Shown here piece by piece: positions 1 through 6,380 of a stretch of DNA of 6,380 nt (position 1 is its first letter; each line of letters opens with the position of its first letter). The stretch spans positions 1-6,380 of the forward strand of contig JAISEA010000072.1 in the NCBI GenBank assembly GCA_031264475.1. The letters are read 5' to 3'. The position numbers and the translations under genes are program-made. Under the pieces are notes generated by a model, which was given only the letters and a program-made list of their open reading frames with translations, was not told where the DNA came from and ran no database searches. This DNA comes from Treponema sp. (GTDB taxonomy: Bacteria; Spirochaetota; Spirochaetia; Treponematales; Breznakiellaceae).

Positions 1-1419
1 TCAAAACAGCTTCTGGGGCTTATAAACGACATCCTCGATATGTCCAAAATAGAAGCGAACAAGCTCGAAATTATAAACAAGCCTTTTGACTTTGAGAAGA
101 TGGTGCAGGATACGCTGAACGTTATCCAAATCAAGGCGGAAGAGAAAAAACAACAGGTTATCGTGGATTTTAATAAACGTCTCGAGCACATGGTTATAGG
201 CGATGCGCTTCGTTTTTCCCAAGTTCTCCTCAACCTCCTATCAAACGCCGTAAAATTCACCCCTGAGAACGGAAATATTACCGTGAGAGTTAAATGGGAA
301 CGTCTACAAGACTCCGCGGACCATAGCCGCGTGAACCTCCGCGTGGAGGTTATCGACACCGGTATAGGAATCTCACCTGAACAACAATCGCGGCTCTTCA
401 ATGCCTTCGAGCAGGCTGACGGTTCCATCACGCGGCGTTTTGGCGGTACGGGGCTGGGACTAGCCCTGTGCAAACGCATCCTCAACCTCATGGGCGGCGA
501 TATATGGATAAAGAGCGAAATCGGTAAAGGGGCAAGCTTCATATTTGAAGCCCACGTTGCTTTTGGGAACGAGCTTGAACAGGAAATCATCGAATATCCC
601 GACGTAAACGAAAGAATTTTGGTCATTGACGACAGCAAGGATGTGCTTGAATACTTCACTCACATACTCGCTAGTTTTTCGATGAATTGCGAAGCCGTGT
701 CTTCAGGGCGGGACGGGCTTGTACTTCTCGAAGCCGGCGTAAAGAGCAACAACCCATTTAGCATAGTTCTGATTGATTGGAAACTGCCCGGAGAGGACTG
801 CGCCTCCATCATAGGAAAGATAAGGAAAATTTCCGGCGGTATTTCTATTGTGATCATGTCGGTCGCGGATTGGACGGACATTGAGCCGTCCGTTAAATCC
901 CTCAATATAAAACGCTTCCTGCCCAAACCGGTCATGCCGTCCACCCTTTACAACACTATCGTCAATCTGAACGACAAGAAGCATCTTAAAAACATCGTGG
1001 AACGGAAGAGCGAAGAAACCGAAAATATCAATTTGGACGGCGCTCTCGAAGGGAAACGCCTGCTTGTCGCGGAAGACATTGAAATCAATCAGGAAATCTT
1101 GGCGGCGCTCCTTGAAGACACCAAAGTTGCTATTGATTTTGCTATAAACGGCGCTGTGGCTGTTGATATGTTTAAGAAACGAAAGTACGATCTGATCCTT
1201 ATGGACATTCAGATGCCCGACCTTGACGGGTTTGATGCGACTCGGCAGATACGGGCTTTAGGCACGGACGCGGCCGTTTCCATCCCCATCGTAGCTATGA
1301 CCGCCAACGCATTCAACGAAGACGTGAAGGCGTGTATAGACGCGGGTATGAACGAGCATCTCGCCAAGCCTATCGAGGTGAACGAGGTGATGAAAACTCT
1401 GGTGAAATACTTGACGTAA
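1..1419 (+). CDS. Hybrid sensor histidine kinase, 3' part (5' end outside window)
   Basis: The frame is open from base 1 to TAA at 1417-1419 (472 residues, numbered from base 1). It is a membrane- or cytosol-based two-component kinase that would autophosphorylate on His and pass phosphate to Asp. Residues 1-22 (LLGLINDILDMSKIEANKLE) are the second helix of HisKA, so the phospho-acceptor His and any sensor domain lie upstream. The HATPase follows at about 60-188: N box with N78 and N82, G1 box D119-x-G121-x-G123, and G2 box GGTGLG at 148-153. Receiver 1 (about 205-325) has D210/D211, phospho-acceptor D259, S287 and K309. Receiver 2 (about 353-470) has E358/D359, D402, T434 and K456. Both receivers look active. 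No HPt domain follows, so phosphate probably moves to a separate HPt or regulator. An ATG at base 40 is internal to HisKA and is not the true start. The signal sensed cannot be told. Confidence 0.95.
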   Translation, partial: SKQLLGLINDILDMSKIEANKLEIINKPFDFEKMVQDTLNVIQIKAEEKKQQVIVDFNKRLEHMVIGDALRFSQVLLNLLSNAVKFTPENGNITVRVKWERLQDSADHSRVNLRVEVIDTGIGISPEQQSRLFNAFEQADGSITRRFGGTGLGLALCKRILNLMGGDIWIKSEIGKGASFIFEAHVAFGNELEQEIIEYPDVNERILVIDDSKDVLEYFTHILASFSMNCEAVSSGRDGLVLLEAGVKSNNPFSIVLIDWKLPGEDCASIIGKIRKISGGISIVIMSVADWTDIEPSVKSLNIKRFLPKPVMPSTLYNTIVNLNDKKHLKNIVERKSEETENINLDGALEGKRLLVAEDIEINQEILAALLEDTKVAIDFAINGAVAVDMFKKRKYDLILMDIQMPDLDGFDATRQIRALGTDAAVSIPIVAMTANAFNEDVKACIDAGMNEHLAKPIEVNEVMKTLVKYLT

Positions 1420-1438
1420 AATAGGTTACACCTCCCCT

Positions 1439-1639
1439 GTCAGGTTTTAAATTCACAGAGTCAGACTTTAAATTCATAGAGTCAAGTTTTAAATTCATAG
1501 AGTCAGACTTTAAATTTACAGAGTCAGGTTTTGAATTCATAGAGTCAGACTTTAAATTCACAGAGTCAAGTTTTAAATTCATAGAGTCAGACTTTGAATT
1601 CATAGAGTCAGGTTTTAAATTCATAGAGTCAAGTTTTGA
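1439..1639. repeat. 21-bp tandem repeat, nine full units plus a partial tenth
   Basis: Units begin at 1439, 1460, 1481, 1502, 1523, 1544, 1565, 1586, 1607 and 1628 (the last is partial). Each reads GTCA, two variable bases, then roughly TTTTAAATTCATAGA. Three subtypes differ just after GTCA: a (GGTTTT), b (GACTTT) and c (AGTTTT). Their order is a-b-c-b-a-b-c-b-a-c, so the array has an 84-bp super-period. Units 1-4 and 5-8 differ at only six positions by eye, and units 3 and 7 are identical. The AT tract recurs every 21 bp, about two helical turns, so intrinsic curvature is possible. The array lies between the kinase stop and the omega-like gene, just upstream of a probable promoter. There is no spacer sequence, so it is not CRISPR. 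Confidence 0.95.
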
Positions 1640-1644
1640 CTCTA
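1624..1644. other. Perfect 9-bp inverted repeat closing the tandem array
   Basis: TAGAGTCAA and TTGACTCTA are separated by GTT. The left arm is the junction of the last two repeat units, and the right arm is unique sequence that mirrors it. The site could be a weak, AT-rich transcription terminator for the kinase, since T-rich sequence (ATTTTCTGTTTCCTTCTT) follows. It could also be an operator for a dimeric regulator ahead of the next promoter. The sequence alone does not decide between these. Confidence 0.5.
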
Positions 1645-1673
1645 CTGAATATTTTCTGTTTCCTTCTTAAATT

Positions 1674-1682
1674 TGCTATAAA
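1674..1682 (+). promoter_or_regulatory. Probable extended -10 promoter for the omega-like/miaA operon
   Basis: TGCTATAAA fits the extended -10 pattern TG-N-TATAAT with one mismatch. No good -35 box is seen 16-18 bp upstream, which is tolerated in extended -10 promoters. The start of transcription would be near 1689, giving a leader of about 50 nt. The upstream tandem array is AT-rich and could act as an UP-like or curved element. Confidence 0.45.
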
Positions 1683-1704
1683 ATCTACACAAATCATATA
1701 GACG

Positions 1705-1740
1705 AAAGGCGGTGAACTTCGTATAATGAAAAAATTATGA
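1705..1740 (+). promoter_or_regulatory. Ribosome binding site and four-codon mini-ORF before the omega-like gene
   Basis: AAAGGCGGTGA (1705-1715) is a strong Shine-Dalgarno sequence with one mismatch to AAAGGAGGTGA. It lies 10 nt from an ATG at 1726 but 21 nt from the ATG at 1737 that opens the long frame. The 1726 ATG gives only M-K-K-L-stop, and its TGA (1738-1740) overlaps the 1737 ATG as ATGA. One extra A in the A6 tract at 1729-1734 would join both frames into M-K-K-I-M-I-F-P. The layout suggests stop-restart coupling, slippage on the A tract, or a sequence error. Confidence 0.6.
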
Positions 1741-1946
1741 TATTTCCATTAGAAGAACTTATTGAATATAAAGCCAATATGTATGACATTACCGTTGCGG
1801 CGTCGCGGCGCTCGTTTCAACTCTCCATGCTGAAGGATGAAGCTATTGAGCAACATGAAGGCAAGGTCATTTCCCTCGCCGCGAAACAGCTTTTCACGTC
1901 TCAAATCAAATTTCGGTTAGATGTCTCTGCCGATTCCACAAATTAA
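1737..1946 (+). CDS. rpoZ: RNA polymerase omega-subunit-like protein (RpoZ/Rpb6 family)
   Basis: The product is 69 residues. Omega is a small accessory subunit that wraps the beta' C-terminus, helps RNA polymerase assemble and, in some bacteria, takes part in the ppGpp response. The visible match is the family core: a leading helix PLEELIEYKANMYD, then ITVAASRRSFQL (compare N-R-F-D-L-V-x-x-A-A-R-R-x-R-Q in E. coli omega), then GKVISLAAKQLFTSQI at the place of the T-V-I-A-L-x-E-I segment. It is shorter than E. coli omega (91 residues) and lacks the C-terminal tail. The in-frame stop at 1713 means the start must lie between 1716 and 1737; 1737 is the only ATG there, but it is badly placed for the Shine-Dalgarno. 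The last nine codons overlap miaA by 26 bp, so the two are co-transcribed and probably translationally coupled. The family call is by eye, and a spirochaete-type divergent omega is the best reading. Confidence 0.75.
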   Translation: MIFPLEELIEYKANMYDITVAASRRSFQLSMLKDEAIEQHEGKVISLAAKQLFTSQIKFRLDVSADSTN

Positions 1947-2865
1947 ATCCCTCCCTGTTTTGGTCCTCTTTGGACCCACCGCGTCCGGCAAAACCGATGT
2001 AATCAGACAAGTCTTTACATCATCTCAAGCCGAAGTGGTGTCTGCGGATTCTATGCAGGTCTACAGAGGCATGGACATAGGTACTGCAAAACCATCCCCG
2101 CGATTACAGGCGTTGATTCCTCATCATCTCATTGACATTCTGGAGCCTGATCAGGAGTTCAATGTGGGCGACTTTGTCCGTCTCGCTGACGCGGCGGTGA
2201 AAGATATTTGGTCTCGTGGGAAATTGCCGGTGGTCTCAGGCGGAACCGGGTTTTACCTGAAGAATTTCATACAGGGCTTGCCCCTGACTCCGCCTTCAGA
2301 CGCGGACATCCGTGCGCAGTTAAAGGCGGAGCTTCAGGCGAGCGGCGTCGAGCCGCTTATCCGCGAACTAGGGTCCCGTGATGCGGTAAGCGCGGGACGC
2401 ATCCACCCCAATGACTCCTACCGACTTCTCCGCGCCCTGGAGGTCTTGCGGTTGACCAATAAGCCTTTGAGTTCATTCTCAATGCCGAAAAAAATCCGCG
2501 ATGATTTTGACTTTCTGCTCATTGACTTGGAGCGTCCGCGTGACGAACTCTACGCTCGCATTGACGAGCGGTGCGCCCAGATGTTTAAAGACGGGCTTGC
2601 TGAAGAGGTTCACGGTTTGTTTGGGAAATATGGAGCGGATGTACCCGGCATGAGAGCCATCGGATACCGAGAGTTCTTCCAAAACGGTCAATTCCGCTCT
2701 GACTTTGGAGAAGTTGAGGCGCTTATCGCTCGAAACAGCCGCCGTTACGCCAAACGACAGATAACCTTTTTCGCGTCCATTCCGGGCGTAACGCGGCTCA
2801 ACGCTGACGACACCCTTCGGATATTAGACGACTTCATACGGGGTGTTGCACCCTTCGGGTGTTAG
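1921..2865 (+). CDS. miaA: tRNA dimethylallyltransferase MiaA
   Basis: The product has 314 residues, the normal family length. It transfers a dimethylallyl group from DMAPP to N6 of A37 in tRNAs that read UNN codons, the first step toward ms2i6A, in the cytosol. The P-loop GPTASGKT is at 18-25. VVSADSMQVYRGMDIGTAKP (39-58) carries the catalytic Asp43 region, HHLID is at 68-72, SGGTGFYLK at 106-114, IHPNDSYRLLRALEV at 161-175 and MRAIGYRE at 244-251. The tRNA-binding stretch RRYAKRQITFF is at 274-284. No Shine-Dalgarno is seen before ATG 1921, so coupling to rpoZ fits. The ATG places the P-loop at the usual distance from the N-terminus. The last 18 codons (D297 to C314, DTLRILDDFIRGVAPFGC) and the TAG stop fall in two tandem copies of the head of the interspersed repeat, so the C-terminal tail is unlikely to be conserved in length. 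Confidence 0.97.
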   Translation: MSLPIPQIKSLPVLVLFGPTASGKTDVIRQVFTSSQAEVVSADSMQVYRGMDIGTAKPSPRLQALIPHHLIDILEPDQEFNVGDFVRLADAAVKDIWSRGKLPVVSGGTGFYLKNFIQGLPLTPPSDADIRAQLKAELQASGVEPLIRELGSRDAVSAGRIHPNDSYRLLRALEVLRLTNKPLSSFSMPKKIRDDFDFLLIDLERPRDELYARIDERCAQMFKDGLAEEVHGLFGKYGADVPGMRAIGYREFFQNGQFRSDFGEVEALIARNSRRYAKRQITFFASIPGVTRLNADDTLRILDDFIRGVAPFGC

Positions 2866-2886
2866 ACGACTTCATACGGGGTGTTG
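2811..2886 (+). repeat. 38-bp tandem duplication of the repeat-arm head across the miaA stop
   Basis: Two adjacent 38-bp copies, 2811-2848 and 2849-2886, begin CACCCTTCGG and end GGGGTGTTG. They differ at two positions (CGGATATTAG versus CGGGTGTTAG). Because 38 is not a multiple of three, the copies are read in different frames. The first gives T-L-R-I-L-D-D-F-I-R-G-V without a stop, and the second gives A-P-F-G-C-stop. The second copy continues into the long repeat arm of the downstream element; the first stops at the head. Confidence 0.9.
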
Positions 2887-2919
2887 TCCGAAAGGTGGAC
2901 CCGCTGACCCCGTCCTGAC

Positions 2920-2949
2920 GGTTACGCTTGCTTTGCAAGCGGAACCTAC
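2920..2949 (-). repeat. REP-like hairpin, copy 1 (GTAG head on minus strand)
   Basis: GGTT-A-CGCTTGC, loop TTT, GCAAGCG-G-AACC (2920-2946): eleven pairs with one A/G mismatch. On the minus strand the hairpin begins with GTAG (CTAC at 2946-2949 on plus). The imperfect palindrome with a GTAG head matches the general form of REP elements bound by RAYT transposases. Confidence 0.75.
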
Positions 2950-2988
2950 TCGTTGTCTGATACCTCGTGCAAGCGGCGCCTTCTTGTT

Positions 2989-3099
2989 GGGGGTGGCGGA
3001 AGACCCCCGCAGGGGGGAACCGGAGACAGGGGGGCGCACCACAAGGGCGTCTGTGCGCCGTCCTCCGTTGTGGAAAACCGTGTCCCCCTCCTTATACTT
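2989..3099 (+). repeat. GC-rich structured core module, copy 1
   Basis: About 110 bp of this core recur in inverted orientation at 5736-5844. Shared blocks include GGTGGCGGAAGACC, GGAGACAGGGGGGCGCACC and ACAAGGGCG. Visible hairpins are CCCCC-GCA-GGGGG (3004-3016) and GGCGCAC...GTGCGCC (3033-3039 with 3053-3059, 13-nt loop). It could be a DNA structure used in transposition or a small structured RNA. No promoter for such an RNA is clear. Confidence 0.7.
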
Positions 3100-3152
3100 A
3101 TGGCGCCTGCCTTGCGTCGGTGCTTACAGCGATCCTTTTCTTCTAACACCGC

Positions 3153-3181
3153 GTAGGTTCCGCTTGCGTGCAAGCGGAACC
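3153..3181 (+). repeat. REP-like hairpin, copy 4 (perfect, GTAG head on plus strand)
   Basis: GGTTCCGCTTGC (3156-3167), GT, then GCAAGCGGAACC (3170-3181) form a perfect 12-bp inverted repeat. GTAG is at 3153-3156, directly at its 5' foot. It is the only copy with its head on the plus strand, which makes it the opposite arm to copy 1. Confidence 0.8.
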
Positions 3182-3261
3182 GTCCTGTCGGGGACAGCGG
3201 CGCCCCCTTTCGGATAACACCCATTAGGAAGTCGTTAAACACCCGAAGGGTGCGAAGGGTG

Positions 3262-3290
3262 TTGCGCTGTTTCATTTTTCACGGTATAAT
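3262..3290 (+). promoter_or_regulatory. Sigma70-type promoter of the SCP2/aminotransferase operon
   Basis: A perfect TATAAT at 3285-3290 lies 17 bp after TTGCGC (3262-3267), a half-matching -35 box. Transcription should start near 3297, about 28 nt before the ATG at 3325. The TTG of the -35 box is the last part of the repeat motif AGGGTGTTG, so the repeat element abuts and probably contributes to the promoter. Confidence 0.7.
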
Positions 3291-3324
3291 TAAGACACAA
3301 TTTAAGGAATATAAGGAGAAAAAT

Positions 3325-4095
3325 ATGGGAAATACGGTAAATACGGCAAAAGACGCGGTAACAAACGCCTACATCAATATGTTCGGCATACTCGGCGCTC
3401 TGGAGGATTTGTGCGGGTTATCGCAGACGGCGAAAACTTTTCTGCCGCGCCAGCCGTTGACGATCTGTTTTGCGGTAACCAAGGGTCCCGCGGCGCGGCT
3501 AACCTTTAGTCAAGCTGAGTGCGTTATTGCGCCCGGAGAGGGAAAGTGCGATATAAGACTGCCTTTTTCATCGGTGGAAAAATTCAACGCGGTGATTGAC
3601 GGTACGGCGACGCCCATTCCCAGCAAGGGCTTCACCAAGATCGGTTTCTTGCTTAAAAACTTCACGGAATTGACCAAACTGCTTGAGAGCTTTCTTCGTT
3701 CAAGCGATCTTACGGATGCGGACTTTTTCAATGCGTCCACGACCATTATGTTTCATCTGATAGCCCAAGCTGTAACGCAGATCGGCAATCATGATGCGGT
3801 CGGGCGGTTCTCCGCATCGAACATCGTTGATGGAACCGCGGTTCTTTCCATTGCGGGCGGTCCGAAAGCCGCGCTCTGCTTCAAAGACCACGGGGTTTCT
3901 TGTTCGCGCCAAATCCCCAAAGATTTCAATGCGCTCATGGAATTCACGGATATGAAACTTGCCCGCGATCTGTTTGACGGCAAGGTAAGCGCGCTTGCGT
4001 GTGTGGGACGCGGGCTTATCGTAATGAAAGGCAATCTTGGAATGTTAGATAACATCAACCGTATTCTGGACAGGGTTGCGGTGTATTTAGCGTAG
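3325..4095 (+). CDS. Protein with two SCP2-like (sterol carrier protein 2) halves
   Basis: The product has 256 residues and no signal peptide or membrane segment, so it is probably cytosolic. ATG 3325 was chosen because AAGGAG (3313-3318) sits 6 nt before it and the promoter at 3285 would lie inside any longer frame. Residues 166-253 read as an SCP2 fold: TAVLSIAGGPKAALCFKD, a middle strand, LARDLFDGKVSALACVGRGLI, then MKGNLGMLDNINRILDRV, matching the family's 'dG...G.l.i.Gd......l' end. The N-terminal half (about 45-125) has the same order: ICFAVTKGPAARLTF, then EKFNAVIDGTATPIPSKGFTKIGFL, then FTELTKLLESFL. This suggests an internal duplication. SCP2 domains hold lipids or other hydrophobic ligands; the ligand here is unknown. 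The stop is 12 bp before the aminotransferase ATG, so the two form an operon and may share a pathway. The family call is by eye. Confidence 0.7.
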   Translation: MGNTVNTAKDAVTNAYINMFGILGALEDLCGLSQTAKTFLPRQPLTICFAVTKGPAARLTFSQAECVIAPGEGKCDIRLPFSSVEKFNAVIDGTATPIPSKGFTKIGFLLKNFTELTKLLESFLRSSDLTDADFFNASTTIMFHLIAQAVTQIGNHDAVGRFSASNIVDGTAVLSIAGGPKAALCFKDHGVSCSRQIPKDFNALMEFTDMKLARDLFDGKVSALACVGRGLIVMKGNLGMLDNINRILDRVAVYLA

Positions 4096-4107
4096 GAGGG
4101 GATTATT

Positions 4108-5379
4108 ATGGCTGATAAATCTGTTTATGACTATAAGAAAAGCGCGGAAATCTTTGAACGCGCGTTGAAAGTGATACCGTCTGGTATTTACGGGCATCAG
4201 GGACCTGCCGAAGGTTGTTTTACGCCGGTAACGGCGTTTCCGTTCTTTTCTGAACGGGCAAAGGGCGCGTATTTCTGGGACGTCGACGGCAACCGATTCA
4301 TTGACTATATGTGCGCCTATGGACCGAATGTGCTCGGCTACAACGACGACGACGTTGACGAGGCGGTCGCGAAACAGCGGGAGAAAGGCGACTGTATTAC
4401 AACCCCTTCCCGTATTATGGTGGACTTTGCGGAACTTCTTGTGGATACGGTGGCAAGCGCGGACTGGGCTTTCTTTGCCAAGAACGGCGGCGATGCGACT
4501 ACCCTTGCTGTTATGACTGCTCGCGCTCACACGCACCGCAAGAAAATCGTGTTTTTCAAGGGTTACTATCATGGGGTTGCTCCGTGGACGCAAAAGATAG
4601 ATTACCCCGGTGTGCTTCCTGAAGATGTGGCGAATTCCCTTTACGTCCGGTGGAACGATTACGAAAGACTAGCTGAGACCTTTGCGGAAAATAAGGGTGA
4701 AATTGCGGCGGTCATTTCTCAACCGTATTGGCACGGCAACTTTGCGGATAACATTCTACCGGCGGACGGTTTCTGGCAAAAGGTGAGAAAGCTCTGTACG
4801 GATTCTGGTGTTGTATTGATAATTGACGATGTGCGGACGGGTTTCCGTCTTGACTTGGCTGGTAGCGATCATTTCTTTGGTTTTTCGGCGGACCTTATTT
4901 GTTTTTGCAAGGCGATTGCCAATGGTTACAATGTGAGTGCGCTCTGCGGCAAGGATTTCCTGAAGAATACGGTCTCTGGGCTTTCCTACACGGGTAGTTA
5001 TTGGTTGTCTGCGGTTCCGTTTGCCGCGGGGATTGCCTGTATTGAGAAGATGAAGCGTCTTGATCTGCCTCGTCTGCTCAACGAGAGGGGTGAAGCTTTG
5101 ATGAAGGGGCTTGTTGAGGTTGCAAAGCGGCGCGGCTTTGATCTGCGTGTTTCTGGTATGCCTGCGCTTTTCTACCTACGGCTTGCTGACGACGATGTGA
5201 ATGGCAGTCCGTCTCTCATGTTGCACCAGCGGTGGATTGCGGAGATGGTCAAGCGCGGTGTTTATGTAACGAATCACCACAACCACTTTCTCAATTACGC
5301 CTTGAGCGCCGACGACGTTAAGACCACCGTTGAAATCGCGGACGAGGCGTTTCAAGCTATACACCCTTCGGGTGTTTAA
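4108..5379 (+). CDS. Class III PLP aminotransferase, glutamate-1-semialdehyde aminomutase-like
   Basis: The product has 423 residues, a normal fold-type I length. The Shine-Dalgarno AGGAGGGG overlaps the TAG of the SCP2-like gene and lies about 7 nt before ATG 4108, which indicates coupling. FWDVDGNRFIDYMCAYGPNVLGY (56-78) is the class III N-terminal signature. KNGGDATTLAVMTAR (125-139) replaces the usual N-S-G-T-E-A phosphate-binding turn with N-G-G-D-A. FKGYYHG (150-156) carries the aromatic/His pair near PLP, IIDDVRTGFR (238-247) the pyridine-N Asp240, and CKAIANGYNVSALCG (267-281) the PLP-lysine K268. TGSYW (295-299) takes the place of the usual S-G-N-P loop. The closest known fold is HemL, but the altered turns argue against a plain haem-pathway role, and no hem gene is nearby. 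The substrate is unknown; a role linked to the SCP2-like partner is inferred. The last five residues before the stop (H-P-S-G-V) and the stop are encoded by a repeat arm. Confidence 0.88.
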   Translation: MADKSVYDYKKSAEIFERALKVIPSGIYGHQGPAEGCFTPVTAFPFFSERAKGAYFWDVDGNRFIDYMCAYGPNVLGYNDDDVDEAVAKQREKGDCITTPSRIMVDFAELLVDTVASADWAFFAKNGGDATTLAVMTARAHTHRKKIVFFKGYYHGVAPWTQKIDYPGVLPEDVANSLYVRWNDYERLAETFAENKGEIAAVISQPYWHGNFADNILPADGFWQKVRKLCTDSGVVLIIDDVRTGFRLDLAGSDHFFGFSADLICFCKAIANGYNVSALCGKDFLKNTVSGLSYTGSYWLSAVPFAAGIACIEKMKRLDLPRLLNERGEALMKGLVEVAKRRGFDLRVSGMPALFYLRLADDDVNGSPSLMLHQRWIAEMVKRGVYVTNHHNHFLNYALSADDVKTTVEIADEAFQAIHPSGV

Positions 5380-5398
5380 CACGCGAGGCGTGTTTAAA
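5361..5398 (+). terminator. Two hairpins at the aminotransferase stop, possible terminator
   Basis: ACACCC-TTC-GGGTGT (5361-5375) is followed directly by AACACGC-GAG-GCGTGTT (5378-5394), which extends through a one-base bulge to TTT/AAA. The stop codon TAA at 5377-5379 lies between and within them. No run of U follows, so intrinsic termination would be weak. The first hairpin is the general head of the repeat arm, and the second is unique to this copy. Confidence 0.4.
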
Positions 5399-5450
5399 TA
5401 CTTCGCACGGGGCGTTGTCCGAAAGGGTGCGCCGCGTCCACTGAGATGAC

Positions 5451-5479
5451 GGTTACGCTTGCACGCAAGCGGAACCTAC
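5451..5479 (-). repeat. REP-like hairpin, copy 2 (GTAG head on minus strand)
   Basis: GGTT-A-CGCTTGC, AC, GCAAGCG-G-AACC (5451-5476), with the same A/G mismatch as copy 1. CTAC at 5476-5479 reads GTAG on the minus strand, directly 5' of the hairpin. Confidence 0.75.
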
Positions 5480-5512
5480 GCGATGTTAGCGGTAAATAAC
5501 AAATAGTAGAGA

Positions 5513-5566
5513 GCAGTTAGCAAAGAGCAGGAGACCCGCGCTCGCCCGTCTTCCTTTGCTAACTGC
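5513..5566. repeat. 13-bp perfect inverted repeat with 28-nt loop
   Basis: GCAGTTAGCAAAG (5513-5525) and CTTTGCTAACTGC (5554-5566) pair perfectly. The loop adds AGAC (5532-5535) with GTCT (5548-5551). TAACTTTTAGG follows. It is absent from element 1 and has a different base composition from the surrounding arms. It could be a small palindromic insertion or a bidirectional terminator between the convergent aminotransferase and transposase genes. Confidence 0.6.
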
Positions 5567-5672
5567 TAACTTTTAGGGGGGCGCGTCTTTCCCTAAACGG
5601 CACCCTTCGGGTGTTAGACGACTTCACAATGGGGTGTTGTCCGAAAGGGAGCGCCGCTTCCACTGTCTTGAC

Positions 5673-5701
5673 GGTTGCGCTTGCACGCAAGCGGAACCTC
5701 C
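5673..5701 (-). repeat. REP-like hairpin, copy 3 (GGAG head on minus strand)
   Basis: GGTT-G-CGCTTGC, AC, GCAAGCG-G-AACC (5673-5698), with a G/G mismatch at the position where copies 1 and 2 have A/G. CTCC at 5698-5701 reads GGAG on the minus strand, the other head tetranucleotide known for REP elements. Confidence 0.7.
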
Positions 5702-5735
5702 GCGTTGTCTGACACCCTAACACTAATCACTAATC

Positions 5736-5844
5736 ATAAGGAGGAGGGGGCGTGTCTTTCCTTAAACGGAGGTCGGCAAACAGGCGCCCTTGTGGTGCGC
5801 CCCCCTGTCTCCAGACCGCCTGCGGCGGTCTTCCGCCACCCCCC
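5736..5844 (-). repeat. GC-rich structured core module, copy 2 (inverted)
   Basis: Read on the minus strand this matches the core at 2989-3099 over about 110 bp. The hairpin AGACCGCC-TGC-GGCGGTCT (5813-5831 on plus) corresponds to the CCCCC-GCA-GGGGG hairpin of copy 1. The stem is kept although the middle pair changed from C-G to G-C. An AAGGAGG at about 5738-5744 looks like a ribosome binding site on plus but is part of the repeat. Confidence 0.7.
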
Positions 5845-5927
5845 GAACCCATCTTAGGCTACTTTCCCGCATGGGCTTCGGTGTCTGACACCACGCAGGA
5901 AGGCGTACTAGCCTCTAGCCTAGCGCA

Positions 5928-6380
5928 TTAAACTTGCCCCGCCACCAACGGCGCCAACGGTGGATCGGCAAAAATGTCAGCCGCCGCATCGTCTACTAAA
6001 CTAGTGAGCCTGTGTAGCCGATGATATAAACTGCCAAATACCCACTCCGCGGCTCGTTCCACAAGTCCCGCCTTCACCGGATTCTCCGCGATGTACTCCC
6101 GCACACGCAGGAAGTCCGTTATCTCGCTGATTATCCGTGAATAGAACCGTTCCCCCCAGACGTGCCCCGTCCGCCCATTCGCTTTGTTCCACGCCTTGGC
6201 GAAATTACACTTTATCCATTGCATTATTTGCGATAAGTTACCGTCTTTACCCGGCTTTATCGATAAATGGACATGATTGCCCATGATACAGAAGTCCAAT
6301 AGCTGGAAATTGAACTTCAGTTTCGCCTTTTTGATGAAAAAAAGTAAGAGCTTCTTGAATCGGGGATCAAGAAGGATCAT
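5928..6380 (-). CDS. REP-associated tyrosine transposase (RAYT, Y1/IS200-like), 3' part
   Basis: There are 150 residues from the window edge to TAA at 5928-5930. RAYTs are HUH-type single-strand nucleases that nick and join DNA at REP hairpins through a 5'-phosphotyrosine. CIMGNHVHLSIKP (31-43) holds the HUH metal-binding pair H36 and H38. GHVWGERFYSRII (72-84) and LRVREYIAENPVKAGLV (91-107) are typical RAYT blocks, and Y96 is the likely nucleophile. AEWVFGSLYHR follows, as in the family's W-x-x-S-S-x-x-x-Y end. The usual N-terminal part (about 30 residues with an R-x-x-x-Y-H-V-T-x-R strand) is missing, so the ATG at the edge is probably internal and the gene continues beyond 6380. The frame shows no damage in the visible part. 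It converges on the repeat cluster that carries GTAG/GGAG-headed hairpins, its likely substrates. Confidence 0.9.
   Translation of the reverse strand: MILLDPRFKKLLLFFIKKAKLKFNFQLLDFCIMGNHVHLSIKPGKDGNLSQIMQWIKCNFAKAWNKANGRTGHVWGERFYSRIISEITDFLRVREYIAENPVKAGLVERAAEWVFGSLYHRLHRLTSLVDDAAADIFADPPLAPLVAGQV

Follow-up and report, generated by a model that had tools for sequence, protein, structure and literature searches.

At the right end of a 6,380-nucleotide (nt) stretch of Treponema sp. DNA (contig JAISEA010000072.1, positions 1 to 6,380; the window), a Y1 transposase gene lies close to several hairpin-bearing repeats. The locus is probably best explained by a palindrome-marked multicopy Y1 transposase of the RAYT superfamily, with the hairpin-bearing repeat, named R1, as its likely passenger. 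An original prediction had described a repetitive extragenic palindromic (REP)/RAYT system in which hairpins headed by GTAG or GGAG carry the mark used by the neighboring transposase. Judged from sequence comparison, it appears to be a 13-letter palindrome, GGTGTCWGACACC, and not GTAG, that marks the ends of the transposase unit.

The transposase and its flanking palindrome

The window transposase was 99% identical to a copy in the Treponema sp. metagenome-assembled genome (MAG) Gx481_bin55 (JAISCD01), here called G001, and its closest relatives were found in Treponema sp. MAGs. Window positions 1-3034 aligned to G001 with 95% identity, and the earlier guess of a spirochete host was borne out by both results. 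Judging by their isolate series, the MAGs presumably stem from termite guts. The G001 sequence analyzed comprised 1,789,074 bases in contigs C1-C117, with small ends of about 12 contigs longer than 20 kb left out.

In the window, the palindrome separates the stop codon of the transposase from the hairpins. As single-stranded DNA, the bare 13-mer folds into a 5-bp stem with a 3-nt loop. The flanks were analyzed in 48 loci with complete or nearly complete genes from nine genomes other than G001, chosen among 80 loci after 14 from G001 and 18 others, mostly cut or partial, had been dropped. With up to two mismatches allowed, 40 of the 48 loci had the palindrome within 280 nt upstream, and 44 had it in the interval from 60 nt before the aligned 3' end to 220 nt past it; of equally sized random windows from these loci, 14 of 331 contained it. 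In G001, a palindrome with at most one mismatch was present within 100 nt of 14 of the 20 transposase loci (from 21 matches, two fragments on contig C68 being merged). The intergenic null expectation was 2.8 (standard deviation [SD] 1.6, maximum 7 in 300 draws). Genes were defined for this null as open frames of at least 100 amino acids, some of them spurious, so spurious frames in repeats counted as coding.

The left end of the unit was seen in genome G004, where the sequence GTCTGRCACC preceded the aligned Met by 113, 114 or 126 nt in all 13 copies. The 80 nt from GTCTGRCACC onward matched in 78 of 78 copy pairs, and the 157 nt leftward of it matched in 2 of 78, over 16-18 nt. On the right side, 10 of the 13 copies had the palindrome close to the stop codon or beyond it, with distances that varied. 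The left flanks of the 13 copies differed. The unit would consist, in order, of a palindrome, a short leader (about 35 nt to the ATG in G004), the open reading frame (ORF) and a second palindrome.

Exact palindromes numbered 207 in G001, 102 in G006, 95 in G004 and 61 in G002, with 0-1 for the reversed control. Among 195 genomes of the family, at least five palindromes were present in 14 of 68 genomes with the transposase and in 4 of 127 without it (Fisher p = 1.2e-4, kinship ignored); thresholds of 1, 2 and 10 palindromes gave p values from 2e-5 to 3e-4, again with kinship ignored. In a text search of the accessible literature, neither of the 13-base palindromes was found; their 11-base cores occurred, never under a title on bacterial repeats.

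Many G001 palindromes stand in tandem arrays (337 of 657 with at most one mismatch). Dense arrays, with up to 39 such copies, were located at C35:34237-36564 and C53:55-1707 and on contigs C28, C2 and C29. By eye, each array has its own spacer sequence, which suggests local amplification.

The transposase ORF runs to the contig end, and its N terminus is therefore missing. Related open frames were mostly longer than the 150 amino acids in the window, the uncut ones mostly 166-209 amino acids. The protein narrowly passed the NCBIfam model REP_Tyr_transpos (NF047646; 83.1 bits, cut-off 80) and failed the NCBIfam IS200/IS605 model (22.2 bits, cut-off 55), and the only solved relative found was E. 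coli TnpArep (4er8). The two HUH histidines were conserved in 97 of 97 and 97 of 98 copies and the catalytic tyrosine in 100 of 100. In the window's N-terminally cut protein, no helix-turn-helix (HTH) domain was detected at E<=1e-3; only Y1_Tnp was found. According to the accessible text of PMC6006769, GTAG is read in E. coli TnpAREP by W94, Q95, E100, H101 and R104, which are not all strictly conserved even among REP-associated subclasses. In 100 copies of the present family, W94 was kept throughout, Q95 was replaced by G throughout, E100 was replaced by S (96) or A (4) and H101 by R (90), K (7), E (2) or C (1), and arginine occupied position 104 in 8. Transposase matches, fragments included, ranged from 1 to 37 across ten genomes and reached at least 8 in eight of them. 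In the accessible text of PMC6006769, a low copy number is given for the class 2 (TnpAREP) genes apart from subclass 2.3. Of the REP/RAYT enzyme originally predicted, the superfamily profile, the HUH motif and the tyrosine hold, whereas the replacement of Q95 and E100 in every copy and the multicopy state speak against it. Several G001 transposase copies lie at contig ends.

The R1 repeat and its hairpin

The four hairpins of the original prediction were present at the places it gave, three with GTAG and one with GGAG at the 5' foot on the matching strand, and the transposase ORF lies 226 bases beyond the nearest hairpin (flanks included). The pattern GKAGGTTNCGCTTGCN{2,6}GCAAGCG matched exactly 67 times in G001, so the hairpin family is not confined to the locus. 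It matched twice in G002 and not at all in eight other genomes with related transposases. The backwards-read pattern gave no match in any of the ten genomes, and the family is therefore not a product of chance.

Each window hairpin forms the 5' part of a repeat of about 115 nt, R1. When 134 G001 copies were overlaid, the conserved stretch started about 13 nt ahead of the hairpin and ended about 71 nt past it, and conservation dropped steeply on both sides. A profile search of 1.79 Mb of G001 yielded 610 matches, which include partial ones and opposite-strand matches to the palindromic part; 234 were full-length. The hairpin stem has 11 bp with one mismatch and begins with GGTT, and GTC follows directly, giving CCGTC at the 3' foot.

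The heads of the 134 copies were GTAG in 52, GGAG in 41, GAAG, GCAG and ATAG in 10 each, and others in 11; GTAG and GGAG together accounted for 93, leaving 41 with neither. The second head base carried 0.29 bits, compared with 1.37 and 1.89 for its neighbors. These copies were selected by a pattern in which the first three head bases are free and the stem, the last G of the head and the following GTC are fixed. Conservation of GTAG in other copies, on which the original prediction depended, was thus largely absent, and the aligned copies suggest a hairpin with little constraint on its head, in which GTAG and GGAG would be a resemblance to REP heads. By eye, several R1 copies in G003 and G026 had other sequence in place of the GTAG hairpin of G001, so the hairpin seems dispensable to R1.

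Two stems were predicted for R1, with compensatory changes in 3 of 16 pairs in some copies. One window copy folded far better than shuffled sequences as single-stranded DNA (z = -4.65), and a second folded no better than shuffles (z = -0.38). R1 also contains three similar half-sites (C/T-NN-ACA or AACA, then C) that resemble the right half of the palindrome; at each of the three places, both N positions carry little information. A further repeat of about 110 nt, called the tail, gave 148 BLAST matches in G001. A full R1 on the same strand was found within 350 nt on the 3' side of the tail in 85 of the 148 and on the 5' side in 3.

Relation of R1 to the transposase

A share of the R1 copies stands in a fixed register with the palindrome. 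In G001, 175 of 224 usable R1 copies (234 full-length) could be anchored; a palindrome was present at one offset in 32 of the 175, the mean over all offsets being 0.39. The palindrome half GGTGTCAGACA (at least 9 of 11 bases) stood in register in 23% of the anchored copies, compared with 0-1% in shifted registers. The R1 ends were examined in 12 of 19 copies from G003, 4 of 5 from G026 and 4 of 19 from G004 among the matches listed. In G003, 8 of 12 copies had a palindrome with at most three mismatches within about 20 nt of the 3' end and 5 had one at the 5' end; in G026, the figure was 3 of 4 for either end. Taken together, 11 of 16 copies had a palindrome at the 3' end, mostly in one register, and 8 of 16 at the 5' end. 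Windows drawn from seven loci, six of them in G003 and one in G004, gave a background of 41 of 1400. At one G026 locus (L303), R1 starts with the very palindrome that follows the transposase and ends with another. Among the matches listed, with strict filters, R1 was detected in 6 of the 195 genomes of the family, and each of these six had a transposase match of 1e-70 or better; the repeat was not equally common in relatives without the transposase, in line with the original prediction. Up to 19 candidates per genome were scored in this search, and up to 150 per genome in the search that covered G005 and G007-G010. In related loci, 7 of 12 R1 matches lay within 300 nt of a transposase (p = 2e-6 if R1 may be placed anywhere).

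At about 115 nt, R1 has no room for its own gene. Its ends frequently fall on the palindrome, which makes a non-autonomous passenger the most likely role. The enzyme would recognize the palindrome as a small single-stranded hairpin, nick beside it via its tyrosine and rejoin the strands. Nicking and rejoining could mobilize the unit and also disperse or amplify palindromes, tandem arrays included, and R1 may be moved or recombined by the same palindrome-cutting enzyme. More tentatively, and with somewhat less than even confidence, a single enzyme using the 13-nt palindrome may feed three tiers from that one site, namely its own units, hundreds of solo or tandemly arrayed palindromes, and R1, whose GNAG hairpin would only look REP-like.

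Several observations weigh against a palindrome-marked transposase with R1 as passenger. The 37 copies sampled from five genomes were 80-95% identical within a genome, which is not the near-identity of a recently active insertion sequence (IS), and three of the 13 G004 copies share a further 16-18 nt or so to the left of the unit. Genomes G028, G065, G109 and G131 hold 7-13 exact palindromes with no transposase match at 1e-20. Conversely, G015-G018, with at least 20 transposase matches each, hold no exact palindrome; four G016 loci carry the related sequence GGGGACAGACCCC or variants of it. In 20 more distant loci, the palindrome (up to two mismatches) was found upstream in 9 and downstream in 8. 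The palindrome half is missing from about 77% of the anchored G001 R1 copies, G001 shows no prominent fusion at the 3' end, and none of the four G004 R1 copies had a palindrome at either end. R1 lay within 300 nt of 8 of the 20 G001 transposase loci, which is no enrichment over the null (5.0, SD 2.0). The proximity in related loci was not significant if placement was confined to intergenic DNA (assumed 15%; p = 0.18). With up to 150 candidates scored per genome, G005 and G007-G010 yielded no R1 despite their transposases, and the genomes with R1 may be close kin, so their co-occurrence with the enzyme is not independent.

Some of these points would suit an explanation in which R1 and the transposase are unrelated neighbors in the same gaps, R1 being a structured RNA, a terminator-like element or the satellite of another enzyme. 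It would account for the five transposase-bearing genomes in which R1 was not found and for the lack of enrichment in G001, where one of the 20 transposase loci had an R1 copy within 100 nt and the intergenic null was 3.4. The strong fold of one R1 copy and the compensatory changes would also suit a structured RNA. We nevertheless regard it as unlikely, at roughly one chance in five, since the 5' end of R1 is fused to the palindrome in a single register, the 3' end carries palindromes in G003 and G026, and R1 was found only in genomes with a close transposase among the matches listed. The second copy, moreover, did not fold better than shuffles, and the window had no Rfam match at E<=1. A terminator consensus scan of the window gave 10 hits, compared with 8.2 (SD 3.2) in shuffles.

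Still less probable is the REP/RAYT system as first proposed, in which the transposase recognizes and cleaves the GTAG- or GGAG-headed hairpins. The RAYT-superfamily profile match, the high copy number of the hairpins with a majority of GTAG and GGAG heads, and the restriction of R1, among the matches listed, to genomes with the transposase are what this model explains. It is contradicted by the nearly free second head base, by the loss of Q95 and E100 from all copies, by the G003 and G026 copies of R1 in which the hairpin is replaced, and by a gene flanked by the palindrome rather than by the hairpin. A RAYT-superfamily enzyme and dispersed high-copy hairpins thus remain of the proposed system, but not their pairing through GTAG or GGAG, and the tetranucleotides are not supported as the mark of the enzyme. 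That the window arrangement is partly an assembly product, with metagenome contigs joined via repeats, is the least probable of the alternatives. Window positions 1-3034 match G001 contig C68 and positions 2987-5495 match contig C115, the switch falling inside the tail repeat, and the G001 transposases at contig ends would also be expected from such joins. Since other contigs and genomes supplied the copy numbers and flanks, the main conclusions are independent of the junction in the window.

Two other candidates were considered and dropped. A second Y1 transposase owning R1 was not seen in G001, since all 14 G001 matches to Pfam PF01797 were also found with the window protein. Integron attC sites carry the motifs RYYYAAC/GTTRRRY; by eye, the similar motifs at the ends of R1 are direct and not inverted.

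Window organization and comparison with known systems

The window ends with the contig, and the transposase at its right end lies on the minus strand with its other flank beyond the contig end. The remaining genes are a partial histidine kinase, miaA (isopentenyl pyrophosphate transferase), a class-III aminotransferase and an ORF without a Pfam match; one small ORF weakly resembles RNA polymerase Rpb6, with a score under the Pfam cut-off. The stop codon of miaA (2863-2865) falls inside an R1 copy and that of the aminotransferase (5377-5379) at an R1 edge, so the repeats supply or border the last codons or stops of these genes. The switch between C68 and C115 at about 2987-3034 reflects either a rearrangement or an assembly chimera. 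With about 95% identity over 3 kb, the window and G001 make the turnover of intergenic mosaics visible between close strains.

Coordinates of repeats, hairpins and the transposase gene in the window
Feature	Position	Strand	Remark
Y1/HUH transposase ORF	5928..6380	-	150 amino acids; HUH = NHVH; catalytic Tyr in YIAENP
Palindrome GGTGTCTGACACC, proposed 3'-side end of transposase unit	5880..5892	strand-neutral	flanks transposase in 48 loci of nine other genomes
Tail repeat	5742..5853	-	148 BLAST matches in G001
R1, hairpin head GGAG	5600..5715	-	5' end fused to palindrome half (GGTGTCAGACAACG)
Hairpin core with 8 flanking bases	5670-5701	-	head GGAG
R1, hairpin head GTAG	5379..5493	-	starts at last base of aminotransferase ORF
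Hairpin core with 8 flanking bases	5448-5479	-	head GTAG
R1, hairpin head GTAG	3139..3253	+	
Hairpin core with 8 flanking bases	3153-3184	+	head GTAG
Tail repeat	2989..3092	+	inverted relative to copy at 5742-5853
R1, hairpin head GTAG	2848..2963	-	includes stop codon of miaA ORF
Hairpin core with 8 flanking bases	2917-2949	-	head GTAG
Partial R1, 3' part only	2802..2848	-	

A tandem array of period 21/42 occupies window positions 1439-1631. In G001, 607 non-overlapping tandem arrays covered about 6% of the bases analyzed, with periods that were multiples of 7 in 387 and of 21 in 307. The 21-nt units were mostly unrelated (mean best identity 10.0 of 21, shuffled 9.9; 100 of 126 units compared), and 1.6% of unit pairs were identical at 16 or more positions. 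Arrays were sparser in the sampled loci of five relatives, with 0-121 per Mb compared with about 339 in G001.

The transposase shares with IS200/IS605 elements the Y1/HUH enzyme and multicopy units bounded by different flanks. It differs in the divergence of its copies, 80-95% identity here compared with about 99% in the accessible text of PMC6006769, and in unit ends that are palindromes also present at hundreds of other places. With the proteobacterial REP/RAYT (TnpAREP) systems, as described in the accessible parts of PMC2817692 and PMC6006769, it has in common a related enzyme and high-copy extragenic hairpins, some with GTAG at the foot. There, however, an inverted pair of GTAG repeats flanks the gene and the repeats are headed GT[AG]G, whereas here the hairpins do not specifically flank the gene, the head base of R1 is not fixed and the hairpin is embedded in an element of about 115 nt. 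Two of the guide-reading residues are replaced in the enzyme, which is multicopy. A GTAG head and proximity usually tie REP-type repeats to their enzyme; both cues can mislead, as here, and the palindrome offers a specific alternative mark, open to a test with a single purified protein. REPs tagged with CGTC have been reported also from Spirochaetes and are said, in the accessible text of PMC3733652, to lack a dedicated transposase. The R1 hairpin is similar in that GTC follows it, giving CCGTC at the 3' foot; by that description it differs in its stem (11 bp with a GGTT start, compared with 8-9 bp) and in lying within a longer element.

The TIRYTs, which form TIRtrons and tentatively correspond to subclass 2.1 (PMC3733652, PMC6006769, in their accessible parts), are likewise RAYT-superfamily Y1 enzymes with HUH and Y---NP motifs. 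According to the same passages, the repeats beside their genes have no relation to GTAG, can be self-complementary and make up families in the genome. Relatives of the window transposase are likewise flanked by a non-GTAG repeat, the palindrome, which 40 of the 48 loci carry upstream and 44 on the 3' side. The terminal inverted repeat (TIR) motif of TIRYTs given in these passages, GGGGWSAS, is fitted by GGGGACAG in the G016 relatives and by GGGGTCAG at one G052 and one G054 locus; the window's GGTGTCAG misses it by one base. As far as the accessible descriptions go, TIRYTs differ in length (median 238 amino acids, compared with mostly 166-209 for uncut frames here), in copy number (mean 1.9, compared with 1-37 matches per genome here) and in a C-terminal HTH-like domain, none being detected at 1e-3 in the window protein. 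The hundreds of palindromes, partly in tandem arrays, are a further difference. No REP-like sequence was found for subclasses 2.1 and 2.3 according to the accessible text of PMC6006769. If the enzyme belongs near these subclasses, the palindrome would be a candidate substrate, and the system, if correctly understood, could supply their cognate repeat. Because no HTH domain was seen and the likeness is one of features and not of a tree, the window transposase was not filed as a TIRYT; in its features it resembles the TIR-flanked TIRYTs more closely than the GTAG REPtrons.

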